A DNA stretch of 41,390 nucleotides. Origin: Desulfuromonadaceae bacterium. GTDB lineage: Bacteria; Desulfobacterota; Desulfuromonadia; Desulfuromonadales; JAHYIW01. The notes beneath the pieces were generated by a model. That model was not told the DNA's origin. It was given only the letters and a program-made list of their open reading frames with translations, and searched no databases. A program made the translations under genes and the position numbers. This document shows, in pieces, positions 1,490-10,603 of this stretch (position 1 is its first letter; each line of letters opens with the position of its first letter). The DNA lies in the NCBI GenBank assembly GCA_019429445.1, contig JAHYIW010000024.1, positions 1 through 41,390 of the forward strand, read 5' to 3'.

Positions 1490-1516
1490 TTGCTTCCCAG
1501 TGCTATCCTCCCATTC

Positions 1517-2503
1517 ATGCCAAGAACAGCCCGTATTGATATCCCCGGCCTTCTCCAACATGTGATGGTGCGCGGCATCGAAAAGCGAAACATTTTTCTC
1601 GGTGACGATGACAAAGCACTGTTTGTTGAACGCTTGTCGAAGTTGCTTATCGCAACCGGAACCGAATGTCTTGCCTGGGCGCTGATGTCCAATCACTTCC
1701 ACTTACTCCTTCGCCCCCAGTCGACCAAACTTTCCCTATTCATGCGGCGCTTGTTGACAGGCTATGCCGTGGTCTTCAATCGTCGCCATCAACGAAGCGG
1801 GCACCTCTTTCAAAATCGCTACAAATCAATTGTTTGCGAGGAAGACGCCTATCTTCTTGAGCTTGTTCGCTATATTCACCTCAATCCCCTGCGGGTCGGC
1901 CTGGCTGAATCCATCGACGAGCTGGATTCATACCGATGGTCTGGACATGGTGTCATTATGGGTCATGCAGAATTTGCGGGACAGAACGCAGATGAGCTCC
2001 TCCAGATGTTCGACAGTAAAAAGGGACGCGCCCGGAAACAGTATCGAACTTTTATCGAGGACGGAATAAATCAGGGAAAAAGAGACGAATTGGTTGGTGG
2101 CGGATTGCGTCGATCCCTTAAACTGTCAGGCTCAAAAGAGCCGGAAGCATACGATGAAAGAATTCTCGGGAGCGGAAACTTTGTGGAACAACTGCAGCTG
2201 ATGACGGAAACCACCGACATCGCACTTGGCCGCGTATCACTGGAAGAAATTATCAGCGCCATTGCGCCAATATTTTCAATCGAACCGGCATCCTTGTGGC
2301 AAGGGGGGAAACGAAAAGAGGTGTCCGCTGCCAGGGGCGCATTATGCTATGTTGCTGTCGTTAAAATGGGGATGAGCGGCGCGGCGGTTGCGAGAATGTT
2401 GAACATCAGTCGCGCCGGAGTCAGTCTGGCCGCGCGAAGGGGCGAAGAGATCTATCAGCGGAGCCGGAACTTACAGGCCGTTGTTTCTGGTTTACAAAGT
2501 TAA
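1517..2503 (+). CDS. REP-associated tyrosine (Y1/HUH) transposase with C-terminal helix-turn-helix
   Basis: A 328-aa single-strand DNA nuclease/transposase of the IS200/RAYT type. The Y1 domain (residues about 5-130) has MSNHFHLLL with the HUH pair H60 and H62, and the catalytic tyrosine Y119 in the typical YIHLNPLRVGL context. The ATG at 1517 is chosen over an upstream in-frame start at 1490 because the family begins MPRTARIDIPG. The C-terminal part (about 225-325) ends in a helix-turn-helix like those of DnaA domain IV or other DNA-binding tails (GAAVARMLNISRAGVSLAAR). All catalytic residues are present, so it may be active. The stop codon lies inside the first unit of a 36-bp tandem repeat. 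Inverted end motifs lie on both sides, and a decayed relative lies just upstream. Confidence 0.9.
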   Translation: MPRTARIDIPGLLQHVMVRGIEKRNIFLGDDDKALFVERLSKLLIATGTECLAWALMSNHFHLLLRPQSTKLSLFMRRLLTGYAVVFNRRHQRSGHLFQNRYKSIVCEEDAYLLELVRYIHLNPLRVGLAESIDELDSYRWSGHGVIMGHAEFAGQNADELLQMFDSKKGRARKQYRTFIEDGINQGKRDELVGGGLRRSLKLSGSKEPEAYDERILGSGNFVEQLQLMTETTDIALGRVSLEEIISAIAPIFSIEPASLWQGGKRKEVSAARGALCYVAVVKMGMSGAAVARMLNISRAGVSLAARRGEEIYQRSRNLQAVVSGLQS

Positions 2504-2560
2504 CAACGTCCCCCTAATGTTCGTGGTTTACAAAGTTAACAACGTCCCCCTAATGTTCGT
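2489..2560 (-). repeat. 36-bp direct tandem repeat at transposase right end
   Basis: Two identical 36-bp units (2489-2524 and 2525-2560) begin GGTTTACAAAGTTAACAACG and end CCTAATGTTCGT. Each carries CGTCCCCC, the inverse of the GGGGGACG motif at the left end (1460). The transposase stop codon (2501-2503) is in the first unit. The second unit looks like a duplication of the right-end recognition sequence. Confidence 0.8.
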
Positions 2561-2600
2561 TGTTTGAAATATGCAGGGGGCCCCCTATTGATCTTCTCAA

Positions 2601-2858
2601 TTATTTCCAGAGTTCCTCATCAACCCGCTCGAAAACAGCCGTGTTGCGCTTGAACTCATCTTCATTCTCCTGGCTCCAGGTCCCGGCAAGGTGGTCGAGA
2701 TCGCTGTAGGTCGCGCAACGCTTACGTTTTTCCAGACCCAACGATTTTCGCAGCAGATGCAAAGTCACGGCATTGACGCTGGATCCTTCCTGGCTAGCGC
2801 GCTCCTTCAGGGCTTGGGCCATCTGTTCGTCGATACCGCGCAAAGTCATGTTGGCCAT
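2601..2858 (-). CDS. VapB/FitA-type ribbon-helix-helix antitoxin
   Basis: An 85-aa protein beginning MANMTLRGIDEQMAQALKER, a ribbon-helix-helix N-terminus of the FitA/Arc kind (residues 3-45, SVNAVTLHLLRKSLGL). The acidic, tryptophan-containing tail (residues about 50-85, ending ERVDEELWK) is likely to wrap the toxin. The start at 2858 is preferred over a longer frame because AAGGAG stands 6 nt before this ATG. It should neutralise the PIN toxin encoded 10 bp upstream and repress the shared promoter. The antitoxin comes second in this operon, the reverse of the usual order. Confidence 0.8.
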   Translation of the reverse strand: MANMTLRGIDEQMAQALKERASQEGSSVNAVTLHLLRKSLGLEKRKRCATYSDLDHLAGTWSQENEDEFKRNTAVFERVDEELWK

Positions 2859-2868
2859 GACGGTCTCC

Positions 2869-3264
2869 TTATTGGTTTTCGACCAGCAGCAGGCTGTCGA
2901 TGGATCGAAAATGTTCATCCAGGGTAGCGAGCGCTAGTCCGTGTCGCAGCGAGGTCGCCGCTATCCACAGGTCATTGGACGGAATCGGTCGCCCTTTTTC
3001 ACGCAGAGCACGAAAAATCTCGGCGTAGAATTCAGCTGTCTCTTCGTCGATGGCCAGCACCTTGACGCGGGGAGAATCCAGAAACTGGTCGAGCTCTCGA
3101 CGATTTTCCGCTTCGCGGCTCCCGCAACGAAAGCCAGCCAGTAACTCGCCGAGTACGACCGTGCTCACGCCGATATATTCCGCCTGACGAAACCGGGTCA
3201 AAACCGATTCCTGCTTCCGTTTGAAAGCCACGTAGAAGTTGGTATCAATCAGGATCTGCTGCAT
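2869..3264 (-). CDS. vapC: PIN-domain toxin, VapC/FitB type
   Basis: A 131-aa PIN ribonuclease. The four acidic metal ligands are visible: D7 (LIDTN), E40 (VLGELLAG), D98 (IPSNDLWIAA) and D116 (TLDEHF), so it should be catalytically competent. VapC-family toxins cleave tRNA or rRNA in the cytosol and are held inactive by a VapB/FitA partner, here the gene 10 bp downstream. The length is normal for the family. A promoter with TTGACC, a 17-bp spacer and TACAAT lies just upstream (3342-3314), followed by an imperfect inverted repeat that could be the operator. Confidence 0.9.
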   Translation of the reverse strand: MQQILIDTNFYVAFKRKQESVLTRFRQAEYIGVSTVVLGELLAGFRCGSREAENRRELDQFLDSPRVKVLAIDEETAEFYAEIFRALREKGRPIPSNDLWIAATSLRHGLALATLDEHFRSIDSLLLVENQ

Positions 3265-3655: not shown

Positions 3656-3691
3656 ATGACATCTGCTCACAACCAACGACGTAATCGATGA
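3656..3691 (+). CDS. Possible 11-aa leader peptide overlapping the nqrA start
   Basis: An ATG at 3656 opens an 11-codon frame (MTSAHNQRRNR) whose TGA overlaps the nqrA ATG as ATGA. nqrA itself has no clear ribosome binding site, so translational coupling from this leader is possible. The evidence is only the arrangement, and the leader's own ribosome binding site is also poor. Confidence 0.2.
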   Translation: MTSAHNQRRNR

Positions 3692-5049
3692 AAAATTGTA
3701 CCCACATCAACAGCCCTAAGGGCTACCAGCTGGCCATCTCCGGCGCACCGGCCACCACGGTGGAGCCTCTCGAAAAACCGGCAACGGTTGCATTGCTGCC
3801 AACCGCCATCCCCTTTATCAAGCCACGTCTCAAAGTCAAAGAGGGTGAGCGGGTCAAGATCGGCAGCGTGCTGATTGAGGACAAGCGCAATCCGGATGTC
3901 CGTTTCCTTTCCCCTGGTGGCGGCACGGTGGACGCGATCCGCTTCGGTCCGCGCCGGGCAATCGAAGCGATCATCATCAAGCTTGACACCACCGAGGAGC
4001 GGATTGATTTCCCCCCCTGCGACAGTGCGCAACTCGACCACCTTGATCGCCCGCTGCTGGTCCGGGCGTTGCTCGACGGCGGCGTCTGGCCGTTGCTGCG
4101 CGAACTGCCGTGGCGCGACTACCCACAGCCCGACAGCATCCCCCCGGCGATCGTTGTCACTCTCGGCAGCGACGAACCGTTTCAACCTGACCCCGCCATC
4201 TACCTGACAGGGCATGAAGAGGACTTCGCTTTCGGTCTGCACATCCTCCGGCGGCTAACTGACGGGCCGGTACATGTGGCTGCCCGCGCCAACAGCGCGG
4301 TGACGCAACTGCTCGCCGGGACCGTCAACCTGACCTGGAGTGGCCTCTATCCGGCGGGCGACCCCGGCACCCTGCTCTACCGTCTGAAAGAGGATGCCAG
4401 CGAGAACCGCTGCTGGTATATCGCCGGGCACGACCTGCTGCTGATCGCGGCATTGCTGCGCACGGGACACTACCCCATCGACCGGCTGGTCTCGGTCGCG
4501 GGATCGGGAGTCGCGCACCCCGGCCATCTGCGTACCCGCCTCGGAGCGCCGCTGGCCGACCTGGCCGTGACCACCTCAACCGAAAGCGCCAGCTTGCGCT
4601 GGATCCAGGGAGGACTGCTGACCGGCACCCGGAGCGAGCCGCAATCGCATCTGGGCCTCTATGCCACCGCCCTCAACCTGCTGCCGGAGGGGGACAGCAA
4701 GGGCGAGCTGTTCGGCCTCTTCCTTCCCGGCTACCGCAAACCGAGCTACTCGCGGGCCTTTCTGTCGGCACTCCATCGCCAGCCACTGTCAACCGACTGC
4801 AATAAACATGGCGGCGAGCGCGCCTGCATCGCCTGCGGCTATTGTTCGCGGGTCTGTGCCGTCGACATCCTGCCGCACTTTACCTACAAGGCACTTCACG
4901 CCGACGCAGTCGAAGAAGCCCTTGAGCACGGCCTGCTCGATTGTGTTGAATGCGGGTTGTGCTCCTACGTCTGTCCGGCCAAGATAGAGCTCGTGCAAAC
5001 GTTCAAAACCGCCAAACGTGACTATCTCAAGGAACAGGGGCAACGATGA
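3688..5049 (+). CDS. nqrA: Na+-translocating NADH:quinone reductase subunit A, with two 4Fe-4S motifs
   Basis: A 453-aa cytosolic subunit of the Nqr complex, homologous to RnfC. The N-terminal part (residues 30-85) has the barrel-sandwich-like PTAIPFIKPRLKVKEGERV and SPGGGTV region, and the middle has the family's Rossmann-like and SLBB-like stretch. The C-terminus is unusual. It has two complete four-cysteine motifs, C380-C383-C386-C390 and C419-C422-C425-C429, as in RnfC and ferredoxins; the well-studied Vibrio NqrA lacks these cysteines. It is nevertheless Nqr and not Rnf, because it heads an nqrBCDEF set including a flavin- and NADH-binding NqrF. The stop overlaps nqrB by 4 bp (ATGA). Confidence 0.92.
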   Translation: MKNCTHINSPKGYQLAISGAPATTVEPLEKPATVALLPTAIPFIKPRLKVKEGERVKIGSVLIEDKRNPDVRFLSPGGGTVDAIRFGPRRAIEAIIIKLDTTEERIDFPPCDSAQLDHLDRPLLVRALLDGGVWPLLRELPWRDYPQPDSIPPAIVVTLGSDEPFQPDPAIYLTGHEEDFAFGLHILRRLTDGPVHVAARANSAVTQLLAGTVNLTWSGLYPAGDPGTLLYRLKEDASENRCWYIAGHDLLLIAALLRTGHYPIDRLVSVAGSGVAHPGHLRTRLGAPLADLAVTTSTESASLRWIQGGLLTGTRSEPQSHLGLYATALNLLPEGDSKGELFGLFLPGYRKPSYSRAFLSALHRQPLSTDCNKHGGERACIACGYCSRVCAVDILPHFTYKALHADAVEEALEHGLLDCVECGLCSYVCPAKIELVQTFKTAKRDYLKEQGQR

Positions 5050-6227
5050 AATGGCTTGAGCTGTTCTTCGACCGGACGCGGAAGCATTTCGAGGCAGGGG
5101 GGCGCCTGGCGCGTTTCTGGCCGTTCTACGAAAGTATCGAGACGGTCTTTTACGCCCCGGCCAGCGTCACTCGCTTCGCCCCGAATATCCGCGACTATCT
5201 CGACACCAAGCGCTTCATGATGCTGGTCATCCTCGCGCTGCTCCCCCACTATCTGTTCGGCATCTACAATGTCGGCTATCAGTCCCAACTCGCCGCCGGG
5301 CTGTCGACCGAACTCCTGCCGGTGGCACTCAACGGCCTGAAGACCGCGCTGCCGATCATCGCCGTGGTCTTCCTCTGTGGCTTCGGCTGGGAGGTGGTCT
5401 TCACCACCATCCGCAAACATGAGATGAGCGAGGGGGTGCTGGTTACCTGCGCCCTTTTTCCCCTCACCCTGCCACCGACGATTCCGCTCTGGCAGGCGGC
5501 GCTCGGCATCTCGTTCGGTGTGGTGATCGGCAAGGAGATTTTTGGGGGCACCGGACGCAACTTCCTTAATCCGGCGCTGACCGGGCGGGCGTTCCTCTAC
5601 TTTGCCTACCCGGTGCAGAACTCCGGCGACGCCATCTGGGTCGCCAAGGTCGCGGGACCGGCGACCGTCGACAGTATCACCAGTGCCACGCCGCTGGCAC
5701 TGGCGGCGACCGCCGAGCGCGGCAGTGATCTCCACGCCGCCTTTGTCGACCATGGGTACAGCGCCATCAAGCTGCTCTTGGGCCTCTACCCCGGCACCAT
5801 CGGCGGCACTGCAACCTTGTTAAGTATCGCCGGAGCGATCTTCCTGATCGTCCTCGGGCTCGCCAGCGCACGAATTATTCTCGGCTGCGTCGGCGGCCTG
5901 CTGGTTACCGGATTCCTGTTCAACCTCGCCGCCGGAGCTGGAACCCCCGTTTACTATACCCTCCCCGCCTATCAGCATCTGCTGATGGGCGGGAGCATGT
6001 TCGCCTTCGCCTACATGGCAACCGATCCGGTGTCAGCGACCCACATGCCTGCGGCGAAATGGGTTTACGGATTCTGCATCGGCGCGCTGACGGTGCTGAT
6101 CCGGGTGATGAATCCGGCGTTTCCCGAAGGGATCGGCATGGCGATCCTGTTCATGAATCTCTTCGCGCCGCTCTTCGATCAGCTCGAAATCAGGTGGCAA
6201 CTGCGTAAACGGGTGACGAATGTCTAG
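5046..6227 (+). CDS. nqrB: Na+-translocating NADH:quinone reductase subunit B
   Basis: A 393-aa polytopic inner-membrane subunit. It carries the covalent FMN site: T215 in the TSATPLAL motif, equivalent to the SGAT threonine of Vibrio NqrB. Many hydrophobic helices run from about residue 58 to 385. Conserved stretches include GGTGRNFLNPALTGRAFL (about 167-184) and MATDPVSATHMP. NqrB forms the Na+ channel and binds FMN and riboflavin. The FMN transferase ApbE needed for flavin attachment is not in this window. The gene overlaps nqrA by 4 bp and nqrC by 8 bp, so the operon is tightly coupled. Confidence 0.95.
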   Translation: MKWLELFFDRTRKHFEAGGRLARFWPFYESIETVFYAPASVTRFAPNIRDYLDTKRFMMLVILALLPHYLFGIYNVGYQSQLAAGLSTELLPVALNGLKTALPIIAVVFLCGFGWEVVFTTIRKHEMSEGVLVTCALFPLTLPPTIPLWQAALGISFGVVIGKEIFGGTGRNFLNPALTGRAFLYFAYPVQNSGDAIWVAKVAGPATVDSITSATPLALAATAERGSDLHAAFVDHGYSAIKLLLGLYPGTIGGTATLLSIAGAIFLIVLGLASARIILGCVGGLLVTGFLFNLAAGAGTPVYYTLPAYQHLLMGGSMFAFAYMATDPVSATHMPAAKWVYGFCIGALTVLIRVMNPAFPEGIGMAILFMNLFAPLFDQLEIRWQLRKRVTNV

Positions 6228-6972
6228 CAACATCAGAACGCTGCTGATCGCGACGCTGCTCGGCGTCGTCTGCACCGTCCTGCTGACCGGCGTATCGGCC
6301 GGACTCCAGGAGCGTCAGGCGCGTAACGCCCTGATCGATCGCTACAGCAACCTGCTGCGCTCGGTCAATCTGCTCGACGAGGGGCGAGACTACCGTGGCA
6401 GCGAAATCGAAGCCCTCTATCAGGAAAATATCCACCGCTACTGGGTCAATAATCAGGGCGAGCTGGTTCCGGAGTCGATGCGGGGCGAGAGTGATGTACC
6501 GCTCTACCTTTACCTCCGGGACAATCGCATTGCGTCCTATATCGTCCCGATCAACAGCCGCGGCCTGTGGGGCCGGATTCACGGTTATCTGGCGATCGAG
6601 AAGGATGGTTCAACCATCGCCGGGTTTACAGTTTACAAGCATGTCGAGACGCCGGGGCTCGGCGGCGAGATTGAAAAAGAATGGTTCCGCAAAAACTGGG
6701 TCGGTAAAAAGATTGTCGATGTCGCTGGCAACTTCGTCTCGATCACCATCGCCAAGGGGAGCGTCCCGCCGGATCTGCCGGCGACGCGTCGCAGCCACAT
6801 GGTTGACGGCATCTCCGGGGCAACGATGACCGGGCGCTTTATGACCGACGACATCAGGAGTATCTTGCAAAACTATGAACCGGTGTCGATCCGTTTCCGG
6901 GGCAACCGGGTGGCCGTACCATCCGACCCGACCGGAAGTGACAACAAAAAAGAAGGGGAGGCCAAACGATGA
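6220..6972 (+). CDS. nqrC: Na+-translocating NADH:quinone reductase subunit C
   Basis: A 250-aa subunit anchored by one N-terminal membrane helix (residues 7-27) with a periplasmic FMN-binding domain. The covalent FMN attachment threonine is T202 in [24 protein letters not shown] (about 139-152) is the usual RnfG/NqrC signature. It receives electrons on the way to NqrB in the sodium pump. The length is normal. It starts inside the end of nqrB and ends in an ATGA overlap with nqrD. Confidence 0.95.
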
Positions 6973-7619
6973 GCTGTCAATCGCGTTCACCGTGGACCGC
7001 CATCCGCAAAAGCAAATCACTCAAGGAGATCGGCAAGGCGCTGTGGGAGACGAACCCGATCTCCAGGCAGATCCTCGGCATCTGTTCGGCGCTGGCCGTG
7101 ACCGTCCAGCTCAAGACCGCCATCGTCATGAGTCTGGCGCTGATCTTCGTCGTCTCGCTGTCCAATCTCTCTATCTCGTTGCTGCGACATCAACTGCCGC
7201 GCAACATCCGCATCATCGTCGAGATCACCATCATCGCCACGCTGGTCATCGTTGCCGACGAGCTCCTCAAAGCGTTCATGTATGGGGTCAGCAAGCAATT
7301 GTCGGTCTTTGTCGGCCTGATCGTCACCAACTGTATCGTCCTCGGACGGGCGGAAGGGTTCGCCCTGCAGAATCCGCCCTTCGCCTCCTTCATGGACGGC
7401 GTCGCCAACGGCATCGGTTACGGATCGCTGCTGATCGGGGTGGCTTTTTTTCGTGAGTTGCTCGGGTCGGGAACGCTCCTCGGCTACCCGGTCATGCCCG
7501 CTCTTTTCTACCAGTGGGGATATGTCGACAACAGCCTGATGCTGCTGGCACCGGGAGCGTTTATTCTGATCGGGCTGTTTGTCTGGCTGCAGAACAGCAT
7601 CATGATGAAACGGCGGTAA
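6969..7619 (+). CDS. nqrD: Na+-translocating NADH:quinone reductase subunit D
   Basis: A 216-aa membrane subunit of the NqrD/RnfE family with about six helices. The two family cysteines are seen at C39 (GICSALAV) and C122 ([10 protein letters not shown]). Together with the NqrE pair they ligate the intramembrane iron-sulfur centre. The polar N-terminus (residues 1-30) ends in the typical [19 protein letters not shown] stretch. It begins with a 4-bp overlap on nqrC and lies 3 bp before nqrE. Confidence 0.95.
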
Positions 7620-7622
7620 CGG

Positions 7623-8231
7623 ATGGAAAATCTCCTCGGCATCGCGCTTAATTCGATCTTTGTCGGCAACATTCTGCTCGCCTATTTCCTCGGCATGTGT
7701 TCATTCCTGGCGATCTCCAACAACGTCAGGACCGCCACCGGCCTCGGCGTTGCGGTGGTCTTCGTCCTCACCGTTACCGCCCCGGTCAACTGGCTGATTT
7801 ATCACACGCTGCTGGCACCGGGGGCGCTGGCGTGGGCCGGGCTGGAGGGCGTCGACCTCAGCTACCTGAAGCTGATCCTCTTTATCACCACCATCGCCGC
7901 CATCGTCCAGGCGCTGGAGATGGTCATCGACCGCTTTTCGCCGGGGCTCTACACCAATCTCGGCGTCTTTCTGCCGTTGATCACCGTCAACTGCGCGATC
8001 CTCGGCGTGTCGCTCTTCATGGTCGAGCGTGCCTACACCTTTACCGAAACGCTTGTCTACAGTGTCGGTTCAGGGCTGGGGTGGGCGCTGGCAATTATTG
8101 CCATGGCGACGATCCGCCACAAGCTGCGCTATGCCGATGTCCCGGAAAGTTTACGCGGGTTTGCCATCAATATGATCATCACTGGCCTGATGTCGATCGG
8201 CTTCATGCTGTTCGCCGGAATTTCACTCTAG
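7623..8231 (+). CDS. nqrE: Na+-translocating NADH:quinone reductase subunit E
   Basis: A 202-aa membrane subunit paralogous to NqrD (NqrE/RnfA family) with six predicted helices in inverted topology. Cysteines C26 ([10 protein letters not shown]) and C124 ([12 protein letters not shown]) match those that bind the membrane-embedded cluster together with Nqr[24 protein letters not shown] is laid out as in the family. It starts 3 bp after nqrD and is followed 18 bp later by nqrF. Confidence 0.95.
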
Positions 8232-8249
8232 TCGCCACGGGAGCACGCT

Positions 8250-9473
8250 GTGTTCGCAACCCTGACCATCGCCCTGGCCGTCGTGCTCGCTATCCTGCTC
8301 ACGCTGGTCGCCATACTGCTGCTGGTGGAGGCCAAGGTCGTCCCCAAGGGGGAACGGCGGGTCAACATCAACGACGACCCGGAGCACGAAATCACCGCCC
8401 CGGCGGGGAAAACGCTGCTGACCGCTCTGGTTCAGAACGAGATCTATCTCCCCTCGGCATGTGGCGGTAAAGGGAGCTGCGGCTACTGCAAGTGCCAGGT
8501 GCTGGCAGGGAGCGGCGAGCTGCTGCCGACCGAACTGCCGCATCTGACCCGCGCCGAACGGCTGGATCACGTGCGACTGGCGTGTCAGGTGAAGGTGCGT
8601 GAAGATCTGCGCATCCGCATCCCGGACGAGATTTTCAGCATCACCAAATACGCTGCCACCGTCGTTTCCAACGACAACGTCGCCTCCTTCATCAAGGAAC
8701 TGCGCATCAAGCTCGACCCCGGGGTGCATCTCGACTTCAAGACCGGCAGTTATGTGCAGATTGACATCCCGCCGTATCGCCGCTCGTTTCGGGATATCGA
8801 CGTGCCAAAGCGCTTCAGCCCGGTATGGGACCATTTCAATTTCTGGGAACTTGTGGCCGAAAATGACGAGGATCAGTACCGCAGCTACTCGATGGCCAAC
8901 ACCCCCGAAGAGGACGACCTGCGTTTCACCGTGCGCATCGCCACCCCGCCGCCAGGTGCCGAGCTGCCGCCGGGAATCGCCTCATCGTATCTCTTCATGC
9001 TCAAGTCGGGAGACAAGGTCACCTTCAGCGGCCCCTTCGGCGAGTTTTTCATCCAGGACACTGACCGCGAGATGTGCTTCATTGGCGGCGGCGCCGGCAT
9101 GGCCCCGCTACGTTCGCACATTTTTCACCAGCTGCTGACCGAAAACACCTCCCGCAAGATCACCTTCTGGTACGGGGCACGTTCAAAGATCGAAATGTTT
9201 TACGATGAAGAGTTCCGCGATCTGGAAAAGCGCTTCCCCAACTTCAGCTACCACGTCGCACTCTCCGACCCGCAGCCGGACGACCATTGGGGTGGTTCTA
9301 CCGGGTTTATTCATCAGGTGGCCTACGACGAATACCTCAAGGACCATCCCGATCCGACCGAGGTGGAATATTATCTGTGCGGCCCGCCGATGATGGCCAC
9401 GGCCGTTTTAAAAATGCTCGACAGCCTCGGTGTCGATCCGGTGATGATCCGCTTTGATGACTTCGGCGGTTGA
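8250..9473 (+). CDS. nqrF: Na+-translocating NADH:quinone reductase subunit F
   Basis: A 407-aa NADH-oxidising entry subunit, started with GTG. Domains in order: an N-terminal membrane helix (about 5-27); a 2Fe-2S ferredoxin domain with C71, C77, C80 and C112; an FAD domain with R211-SYS; and a ferredoxin-reductase NADH domain with GGGAG (279-283) and a C-terminal CGPPMM motif. It takes hydride from NADH and passes single electrons to the 2Fe-2S centre and then to the D/E cluster. It closes the operon; a terminator hairpin stands at 9587-9609. Confidence 0.95.
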   Translation: MFATLTIALAVVLAILLTLVAILLLVEAKVVPKGERRVNINDDPEHEITAPAGKTLLTALVQNEIYLPSACGGKGSCGYCKCQVLAGSGELLPTELPHLTRAERLDHVRLACQVKVREDLRIRIPDEIFSITKYAATVVSNDNVASFIKELRIKLDPGVHLDFKTGSYVQIDIPPYRRSFRDIDVPKRFSPVWDHFNFWELVAENDEDQYRSYSMANTPEEDDLRFTVRIATPPPGAELPPGIASSYLFMLKSGDKVTFSGPFGEFFIQDTDREMCFIGGGAGMAPLRSHIFHQLLTENTSRKITFWYGARSKIEMFYDEEFRDLEKRFPNFSYHVALSDPQPDDHWGGSTGFIHQVAYDEYLKDHPDPTEVEYYLCGPPMMATAVLKMLDSLGVDPVMIRFDDFGG

Positions 9474-9495
9474 GTGAAAATTGAAGAGAGTCCTT

Positions 9496-9588
9496 ATGCC
9501 TGAATTAAACGTGAACGACGTTGTTTACCAAAACCTGATCAAGGTCAGCACATTCAACTGGGCAACATCGGACGCTAAAAACAGCTAA
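9496..9588 (+). CDS. Possible 30-aa small protein after nqrF
   Basis: A frame begins MPELNVNDVVYQ and ends ATSDAKNS with a TAA that overlaps the first bases of the terminator stem. A purine-rich AGAGAG lies 5-10 nt before the ATG. It is 22 bp past nqrF in the same direction, so it would be co-transcribed. No family is recognised and it could be chance. Confidence 0.3.
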   Translation: MPELNVNDVVYQNLIKVSTFNWATSDAKNS

Positions 9589-9609
9589 ACCCGCATGGTT
9601 AGCGGGTTT
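9587..9609. terminator. Bidirectional hairpin terminator between nqr and tRNA-Leu
   Basis: An 8-bp perfect stem AAACCCGC/GCGGGTTT with a 7-nt loop. Leftward it is followed by a T-rich stretch (AGCTGTTTTTAG), which suits termination of the tRNA transcript. Rightward the T run is weaker. It sits between two converging units. Confidence 0.75.
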
Positions 9610-9643
9610 CCTGTACTTTCTTGAACGGTATTGAACTGTCTAG

Positions 9644-9730
9644 TGGTACCTGGGGCGGGAATCGAACCCGCACGACGTTTCCGTCAGGGGATTTTAAGTC
9701 CCCAGTGTCTACCAATTCCACCACCCAGGC
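9644..9730 (-). tRNA. tRNA-Leu (anticodon TAA)
   Basis: The minus strand folds as an 87-nt leucine tRNA with encoded CCA. The acceptor stem GCCTGGG/CCCAGGT is closed by a G-T pair, with discriminator A. The D-arm segment is TGGTGGAATTGGTAGACA. The anticodon loop CTTAAAA is in a GGGGA/TCCCC stem, and the long variable arm (TGACGGAAACGTC) is characteristic of class II tRNAs. The T-arm is GCGGGTTCGATTCCCGC. It reads UUA/UUG codons and lies downstream of mqnA on the same strand. Confidence 0.97.
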
Positions 9731-9784: not shown

Positions 9785-10603
9785 TCAGCAGGCAAAACGT
9801 ATTTCCGGCACATCATCAAGCAATTGGTATTTTGCCGCCATCCGAAAATACAACTGCATCCCCTCCAAACAGGACGCAGGCAACCCGTACTCGATCAGGC
9901 GCCAGTACTCAACAAGTTGTTTTTCAGTCATGGCCGTTGCTTCGCCCGTCCGCCTGGCCAGGAGTGACAACTGCAAAAAGGCTTTCTCTTTGGCCTGCTG
10001 CAACTGTTTTCTCAATAAATCGAGCGCGACTGCGTTTTTTTCAGCAAATTCACGCCGGACAATCCATAAAGCAAAAACAAAGGGCAGGCCGGTTAAATCT
10101 TTCCACATCGCGCCCAGATCAAAGGCACGGCAATTTGTCGTATATGCACACCGCAGGGCACGATCCCCGATGAGAAGGGCAGGCCGTCCGGAGGCAACAA
10201 TCTGCTCAAGCGGCTCACTGGGGACATAGGTGCAAACATTAGCCCAGCCATAATATTCACGCAGGAGGATTCGCAACAAGTTGACAGATGATGCCGATTC
10301 GCCGGTAATCGCAATTTTCGTCAGCGGATCGAGCTGTTCAGGTGATTTTTCACTGAATAATAAAACGCTCCACACCGGACCATCAGCACTCACCGACAAA
10401 TCAGGCAGGAGAACATAATTGCGCCAGTTACGTGCATATTCGAACGACGACGAAGGGCTGGCATCGATCGCGCCGCAAGCGAGCAAGCGATTCAGTTCTG
10501 CGGGAACCCCTGGAATAATCTCTCCGCCGAAACCGGCCTCACGAATAAAGTGAAAAAACGGAACGCAGTTCGTGTAGATGATGCAACCAAGACGCAAGGT
10601 CAT
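9785..10603 (-). CDS. mqnA: Chorismate dehydratase, futalosine menaquinone pathway
   Basis: A 272-aa cytosolic enzyme of the MqnA family, which dehydrates chorismate to 3-enolpyruvylbenzoate, the first step of the futalosine route to menaquinone. The N-terminus RLGCIIYTNCVPFF and the stretch GVPAELNRLLACGAIDASPSSSFEYAR match the substrate-binding-protein-like fold. The later GLPFVFALWIVRREFAEKN segment is also typical. Other mqn genes are not in the window. It lies with chorismate-pathway genes (aroC, aroB, aroQ) on the same strand and near the quinone-reducing Nqr complex. Confidence 0.9.
   Translation of the reverse strand: MTLRLGCIIYTNCVPFFHFIREAGFGGEIIPGVPAELNRLLACGAIDASPSSSFEYARNWRNYVLLPDLSVSADGPVWSVLLFSEKSPEQLDPLTKIAITGESASSVNLLRILLREYYGWANVCTYVPSEPLEQIVASGRPALLIGDRALRCAYTTNCRAFDLGAMWKDLTGLPFVFALWIVRREFAEKNAVALDLLRKQLQQAKEKAFLQLSLLARRTGEATAMTEKQLVEYWRLIEYGLPASCLEGMQLYFRMAAKYQLLDDVPEIRFAC

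Follow-up and report, generated by a model that had tools for sequence, protein, structure and literature searches.

The stretch of DNA analysed here (the window, 41,390 nucleotides) encodes an Na+-NQR operon whose NqrA subunit carries two complete 4Fe-4S motifs at its C-terminus. Judged from its sequence, this NqrA retains a full set of Fe-S ligands, and hence it is outside the canonical cofactor-free NqrAs. Proteins of this kind, which we call Cys8-NqrA, mark a separate lineage of Nqr (Cys8-Nqr), which is common in our sample of the class Desulfobacteria, and as far as we found, this lineage with complete cluster sites is undescribed. We propose, with moderate confidence, that ancestral cysteines have been retained in an NADH-driven Nqr and that the clusters they bind would give the riboflavin of NqrB a redox side port, the port being deduced by analogy with related complexes.

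According to the available sections of a 2025 review (PMC12174285), NqrA carries no redox cofactor and has not been assigned a function, and the accessible parts of that and two other papers say that its redox cofactors were lost (PMC12174285, PMC4014512, PMC11889175). Papers that describe genomes of sulfate reducers do record nqr operons, and the portions of two of them that were available make no mention of a cysteine-complete NqrA (PMC2702500, PMC4046663); one calls the complex identical with that of Vibrio (PMC4046663, in part), and D. multivorans is given as having no nqr in the available text of PMC5109826. Among the open literature, judged by title and the start of the abstract and with supplements and subscription papers aside, no published NqrA with Fe-S ligands was found. 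A sequence-only reading of this DNA had made the novelty of the eight cysteines depend, among other things, on their being absent from the literature, and within the literature searched, that novelty holds. The Cys8 lineage would be a natural comparison for asking what NqrA was for.

The nqrA gene and its operon

The window NqrA has 12 cysteines (positions 4, 111, 242, 371, 380, 383, 386, 390, 419, 422, 425 and 429), the last eight of which form two C-x2-C-x2-C-x3-C motifs, at exactly the positions in the translation that the sequence-only reading had given (Table 1). The pair of motifs that is used to recognize RnfC is therefore present. The C-terminal 84 residues align without gaps to the RnfC of three solved Rnf complexes with all eight cysteines matched, and four Pfam 4Fe-4S dicluster models exceed their gathering scores within residues 378-433, other 4Fe-4S models being below theirs. 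The remainder is covered by NqrA domains, all above their gathering scores: NQRA_N at 10-100 (82.5 bits, cut-off 25), NQRA_2nd at 123-261 (104.7, cut-off 25) and NQRA_SLBB at 268-316 (37.9, cut-off 27). An AlphaFold2 model, which contains no cofactors, has a mean pLDDT of 87.9 (mostly about 75-85 in the cysteine domain) and a pTM of 0.90; a fold search with it returned NqrA first (Z 44.2, 2.2 Å over 438 residues) and RnfC second (Z 29.7, 3.6 Å over 405 residues).

Table 1. Positions of the nqr genes, the two cysteine motifs and the adjoining tRNA gene in the window
Feature	Position	Strand	Remarks
nqrA (Cys8-NqrA)	3688..5049	+	453-aa open frame from ATG; both 4Fe-4S motifs
First 4Fe-4S motif, C380-I-A-C383-G-Y-C386-S-R-V-C390	4825..4857	+	Ungapped to RnfC of PDB 9eri, 8ahx and 7zc6
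Second 4Fe-4S motif, C419-V-E-C422-G-L-C425-S-Y-V-C429	4942..4974	+	Ungapped to RnfC of PDB 9eri, 8ahx and 7zc6
nqrB	5046..6227	+	Over two NCBIfam nqrB cut-offs; N-terminal segment absent from RnfD (alignment); SAT block
nqrC	6220..6972	+	Over TIGR01938 cut-off; SGAT motif
nqrD	6969..7619	+	Over two NCBIfam nqrD cut-offs
nqrE	7623..8231	+	Over TIGR01940 cut-off
nqrF, NADH dehydrogenase module	8250..9473	+	Fer2, FAD and NAD domains; 572 bits, cut-off 295
tRNA-Leu	9644..9730	-	Directly beyond the operon

nqrA is the first gene of a complete nqrABCDEF operon (3688-9473), so that the gene set of an Na+-NQR complex with NqrF is present. The window complex resembles the canonical Na+-NQR of V. cholerae (PDB 8a1y, 7xk3) in its electron input through NqrF, in the N-terminal segment of NqrB and in the whole fold of NqrA, and its gene order is that of the canonical operon, as compared with Enterobacter (locus L154). 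The N-terminal helices of NqrB serve quinone binding in V. cholerae, according to the available parts of two papers (PMC12174285, PMC10643135).

The genome to which the window belongs also encodes an ApbE flavin transferase and a separate rnfC that is over its cut-off. We take the SAT block of NqrB to be its covalent FMN site and the SGAT motif of NqrC to be its flavinylation site. A profile for NqrM matched none of 20 genomes, including those with a canonical Nqr, and no control matched it either. One short stretch of NqrB varies among the complexes, being CGFGWE in the window, VGGFWE in gammaproteobacteria and VGLGIE in a Bacteroides; we assume that its second Gly is perhaps the quinone-contacting G141.

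The eight cysteines are invariant in seven proteins, six of which are 41-58% identical to the window NqrA, and in an alignment of 59 rows made up of the window and 58 of 80 named loci. The named loci were found with patterns on C390, C419 and C422; the search itself thus partly dictates the presence of these three, but not of the other five. As far as sequences can tell, the conservation of all eight is more than chance. Canonical NqrA is different: it has no redox cofactor (PMC12174285, in the sections available), and the 51 proteins compared from the window's class (loci L002-L031 and L159-L181) have six of the eight positions replaced in every case. The equivalents of C425 and C429 are kept in 49 of the 51 and in all 51, respectively, and this pair is also all that is left in the V. 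cholerae NqrA, the best match in the PDB.

The residues around the cysteines are conserved as well. Among the 59 Cys8 proteins the mean identity of the cysteine domain, with the cysteines themselves excluded, is 66.9% versus 46.8% for residues 12-349, and the corresponding values for the 51 canonical NqrAs are 62.7% for the cysteine domain versus 57.0% for the rest. Relative to the rest of the protein, the domain is thus more strongly constrained in proteins that have the cysteines, and working clusters fit this better than decay does. This unusual constraint, seen at the level of sequence, argues for working clusters.

Distribution of Cys8-NqrA and origin of the window operon

The eight cysteines are not a general trait of the window's class. 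NQRA_2nd is found in 55 of the 194 genomes in the class sample, with 57 matches besides the window, 56 of which were read (a 227-aa fragment, G159:C38, was left out). Fifty-four of these reach the cysteine region, L015 and L179 ending before it, and the motif is present in none of the 54. This bears on a point made in the sequence-only reading, that the find would lose its novelty if most NqrAs of the organism's own order carried the cysteines and were described; the rest of this class sample shows no such cysteines. Among the 395 genomes of the phylum sample, the NqrA hits above 150 bits include seven with both motifs (the window among them) and seven with neither, one further hit (G553) being a fragment.

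A scan of named genomes gave 109 relatives, and the best 80 of the 109 all have both motifs, a figure that is partly built in by the search patterns on C390, C419 and C422. A fairer count comes from 291 genomes of one class (that of genome G513), which were searched with a domain lacking the cysteines; 215 of them match, 187 over the cut-off. From the best 150 rows, 49 distinct loci were inspected (the 30 best rows and 19 hand-picked lower ones), and 45 have both motifs. The four loci with neither are exactly the four rows above 180 bits. Twenty of the 49 share their last 200 residues with a named locus, including those of Desulfonema magnum, a Desulfatibacillum and various Desulfobacterales, and we therefore take the class to be Desulfobacteria; by the same token, the counts of 80 and 49 overlap. 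Named carriers include Desulfonema magnum, Desulfosarcina widdelii, Desulfosarcina alkanivorans, Desulfosudis oleivorans and a Desulfatibacillum sp., and D. oleivorans belongs to the Desulfobacteria by taxonomy. Cys8-NqrA is the usual NqrA type among the inspected loci of this sample of sulfate-reducing Desulfobacteria, and the single odd protein that the sequence-only reading implied has given way to a whole group.

Where 6.5 kb or more of sequence follows nqrA, as it does in 42 of the 80 named loci, all six nqr genes are present in 39 and not in the other three; the remaining 38 loci are too short to judge. Split operons, with nqrABC or nqrAB separated from the rest, were seen in L071 (Desulfonema magnum), L076 and L093; the nqrF of D. 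magnum is elsewhere in its chromosome. Two genomes (G675 and G802) each have one match in the score range of the canonical proteins and another in the Cys8 range, and so both NqrA types may occur in one genome.

The window copy itself looks acquired, since the other readable NqrAs of its class sample do not have the motif. Several features suggest, and indicate rather than prove, that the operon arrived by horizontal transfer. The GC3 of the nqr genes is 0.74-0.82 versus 0.52-0.60 in three flanking genes, a tRNA-Leu gene adjoins the operon and is a possible boundary of acquired DNA, and NQRA_2nd has no match in the sole genome of the same genus in the class sample. The trees described below, together with the GC3 values, also suggest such a transfer. 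One GC-rich stretch (0.61) occurs on another contig of the genome too. No attachment repeat of the tRNA-Leu gene was found among the 20 repeat families listed of at least 60, and the first 20 kb of the window have no near DNA match on plasmids. The window NqrA matches 64 plasmid records, and those among the 20 matches listed are less than 37% identical to it; a few of these organisms also served in the comparison with canonical Nqr.

Some of the neighboring genes were classified by eye. To the left of the operon (1490-3264) there is a REP-type transposase-like gene and a VapBC-like toxin-antitoxin pair. On the other side, an MqnA-like gene of the futalosine menaquinone pathway (9785-10603, minus strand) adjoins the operon, which would fit menaquinone as the electron acceptor.

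Possible roles of the clusters

We predict that two [4Fe-4S] clusters assemble in Cys8-NqrA and that, if the subunit docks as its relatives do, they would lie beside the riboflavin of NqrB, as in RnfC. Riboflavin in Rnf passes electrons to an RnfC cluster 11.7 Å away (PMC9588780, in the part available), and the quinone in V. cholerae Nqr is 11.6 Å from riboflavin (PMC10643135, likewise in part). Cys8-Nqr, in which the quinone site is apparently kept beside the putative cluster port, appears to retain both of these endpoints, so that the electron path would fork at riboflavin. The FMN that passes electrons on to NAD+ in Rnf is missing, and thus the branch would have to end in a partner, in storage or nowhere. 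With the FMN gone, the clusters would presumably be a redox side port, in which electrons are stored or conducted to a cytoplasmic partner, in parallel to the quinone site. This raises the possibility that sulfate reducers have a sodium pump with an additional port for electrons.

The port is opposed by the neighborhoods of the operons, in which no partner gene is common to most loci. None was found in most of the 83 neighborhoods when gene families were called by eye, without profiles. The commonest neighbor other than nqr genes is citrate synthase-like and is absent from the window; it occurs in at least 34 of the 83 loci, followed by genes that resemble Fur/PerR (at least 18), glutaredoxin (at least 13) and the catalytic subunit of ferredoxin:thioredoxin reductase (at least 12), all these counts being lower bounds because many loci are short. 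It also counts against a redox port that clusters of the RnfC type may have too negative a potential to be reduced by riboflavin.

The strongest rival is that the clusters form and are structural, i.e., that they secure the small C-terminal domain to NqrB and take no part in electron transfer. We give this a smaller, though still appreciable, chance. It would explain why no partner gene is conserved and why the FMN site that receives the electrons was not detected (neither by alignment nor as a match to Complex1_51K), and the canonical NqrAs, which retain two of the cysteine positions (in 49 and in 51 of 51), have the same fold with no clusters. This last fact can be turned around, however, because a fold that needs no cluster would hardly require the eight ligands that were kept through wide divergence. 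In addition, clusters placed as in RnfC would be within electron-transfer distance of riboflavin, and [4Fe-4S] clusters of this kind are usually oxygen-sensitive, which does not favor a purely structural role.

Alternatively, the clusters might be an entry point for ferredoxin, as the sequence-only reading had supposed in suggesting a ferredoxin-like donor to NqrA. Electrons would then flow from ferredoxin through NqrA and riboflavin to menaquinone in a bypass that pumps no ions. A cluster may be exposed where there is no FMN, the rnfC of this genome would imply that low-potential carriers are presumably present, and the ferredoxin:thioredoxin reductase-like gene occurs in at least 12 of the 83 neighborhoods (by eye). 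However, neither rnfB nor a ferredoxin gene was found in the operon or in the gaps that flank it, where frames of at least 25 aa were inspected. Moreover, the homologous subunit of Rnf is an output module, 25 to over 30 Å from the RnfB carriers, in the available parts of PMC9588780 and PMC11889175, and a donor acting there would therefore enter after the pumping steps. We consider ferredoxin entry improbable and prefer the side port over the supposed donor.

Descent from Rnf and identity of the protein

All trees used were built with the cysteine columns excluded. A first quick tree (18 Cys8, 18 canonical, 3 short alphaproteobacterial, 2 hybrid and 14 Rnf rows) left open the order of Bacteroidota, Cys8 and proteobacterial Nqr. 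The later trees leave out the alphaproteobacterial rows, whose composition is odd, as well as several of the Rnf and canonical rows, and keep 8 to 10 Cys8 rows. In the tree of NqrB, NqrD and NqrE (35 rows), Rnf forms a single clade, two hybrid operons branch next toward Nqr, and a Cys8 clade (100/99) stands beside the canonical clade of Bacteroidota and proteobacterial Nqr (91/89); adding the Rnf of Bacillota, Bacteroidota, Gemmatimonadota and Gammaproteobacteria (36 rows) left the topology unchanged (92/85). Cys8 is also beside the canonical proteins with NqrA lacking its C-terminus (96/89), a tree in which the hybrid A subunits are inside RnfC (80/70) so that Rnf is not one clade, with NqrF (93/79), where the Cys8 clade itself has only 61/31, and with the six subunits joined (93/91). 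Five of the six trees, which overlap in their data, thus place Cys8-Nqr beside the canonical Nqr sampled (bootstrap 91-96); four of the six (the quick, NqrB+D+E, extended-Rnf and six-subunit trees) share NqrB, NqrD and NqrE and are not independent. As sequence evidence, this is good but not closed: AU tests rejected neither a grouping of Cys8 with Bacteroidota (p 0.115) nor one with proteobacterial Nqr (p 0.277), and the sampling did not include Chlamydiae, Planctomycetes or Chlorobi.

The eight cysteines are present in all eight Rnf rows and in both hybrids, and this pattern is most simply explained by an ancestral origin of the cysteines, followed by one or two losses. They are probably a state kept from Rnf and lost toward canonical Nqr, which the sequences indicate rather than prove. 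The sequence-only reading had seen in the window protein an intermediate form between Rnf and Nqr. The ancestral appearance bears this out, with cysteines common to Rnf and two hybrid operons and a place beside canonical Nqr in most of the trees; that a lone protein of this organism is the intermediate does not hold, since 45 of the 49 Desulfobacteria loci are alike and the window copy looks acquired.

The hybrid operons, L191 (G270:C106:1-11197) and L190 (G235:C299:1-5153), come from two genomes of the phylum and are the only two in their order sample. Like Cys8-Nqr, they have all eight cysteines, with matches to 4Fe-4S models; unlike it, their A subunits resemble RnfC, with RnfC_N and Complex1_51K over the cut-offs. 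The L191 operon ends with an nqrF whose product is over the equivalog cut-off (311 versus 295), and the L190 contig stops before that position. By NCBIfam the core of L191 is nearer to Rnf, its B subunit being over the rnfD and below the nqrB cut-off and its D subunit over RsxE and below nqrD, and on the trees of B, D and E the hybrid core is between Rnf and Nqr. The FMN motif of the L191 A subunit looks altered by eye in the alignment. Genes with eight CxxCH motifs each are present on both sides of the L191 operon.

Because Cys8-Nqr and one hybrid operon pair NqrF with a cysteine-complete A subunit, we have an indication of the order of events, which suggests that NqrF joined before the A subunit had lost its FMN site and its clusters. 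A 2014 study proposed that RnfB was lost first, that RnfC decayed as a consequence and that NqrF was then recruited; in its available text the timing of the cluster loss is left open (PMC4014512), so Cys8-Nqr bears on a step about which that scheme is silent. The same study found the Nqr of Desulfobacteraceae to be anomalous and early-branching (PMC4014512, in part), and this branch is plausibly the Cys8 lineage, a link made through organism names, not through the sequences of that study; Desulfosudis oleivorans and Desulfatibacillum sp. carry Cys8-NqrA in our data. The passages available differ from the present finding in saying that NqrA has lost its cysteines, with retention unmentioned, and in having a second branch of sulfate reducers (PMC4014512). 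Cys8-Nqr may preserve an early stage in the evolution of the pump. A bolder proposal, which we find tempting and rather unlikely, is that Cys8-Nqr would be a sodium pump whose function differs from that of other Nqr complexes, with one port each for NADH, menaquinone and a cytoplasmic carrier of low potential, and with the NqrA clusters as a second electron branch at the NqrB riboflavin. Together with the RnfC-like/NqrF operon, it would then be what survives of a series leading from Rnf to Nqr that began with the gain of NqrF, continued with the loss of the FMN site from the A subunit and ended with the loss of the clusters.

The cysteines could also have come back through recombination with the part of an RnfC gene that encodes the C-terminal domain, and the genome of the window does hold an rnfC. 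This domain swap is judged very improbable. With the cysteines set aside, the domain resembles canonical NqrA (mean identity 34.0%) more than RnfC (26.2%), the linker ahead of the motifs is present, an NqrA trait that RnfC does not have, and the Cys8 operons are one clade on NqrB, NqrD and NqrE alone.

Finally, the name of the protein rests on its domains, the tree and the operon, not on the NCBIfam cut-offs. The window NqrA is below the cut-offs of all five NqrA equivalog models that it matched (408.5 bits versus 450, 289.9 versus 505, 277.8 versus 321.05, 226.4 versus 819 and 100.2 versus 850). The rnfC model TIGR01945 gives 99.3 bits versus a cut-off of 245.95, its best stretch (375-447) being the cysteine domain only. 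RnfC_N and Complex1_51K, the FMN domain, are not among the 18 Pfam families that match the window NqrA at E up to 1, and the same search found both of them in both hybrid A subunits. In the tree made without the cysteine domain, Cys8-NqrA and canonical NqrA are joined at 100/100, apart from RnfC and the hybrids. RnfC itself has an FMN and an NAD site and works with RnfB, in whose place the window has NqrF. By all these sequence characters the protein is an NqrA and not an RnfC, as the sequence-only reading had named it, and its place outside RnfC removes the other doubt raised there about its novelty. That an RnfC has been misnamed, which the two motifs and the low NqrA scores might have implied, is ruled out by the NQRA domains, the low rnfC score confined to the cysteine domain, the tree, and an operon with nqrF and no rnfB.

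Other unusual Nqr operons were seen in the course of this work. In L192 (G539:C108:52000-70000), nqrA and nqrB are apparently fused in a 778-aa frame (locus 7323-9656, minus strand) that has no cysteine motifs. Two alphaproteobacterial plasmids (L150 and L151) have Nqr-like operons with a short NqrB of about 260 aa, which in L151 aligns without the SAT block, and both operons adjoin a cytochrome gene and a CBS-domain gene.
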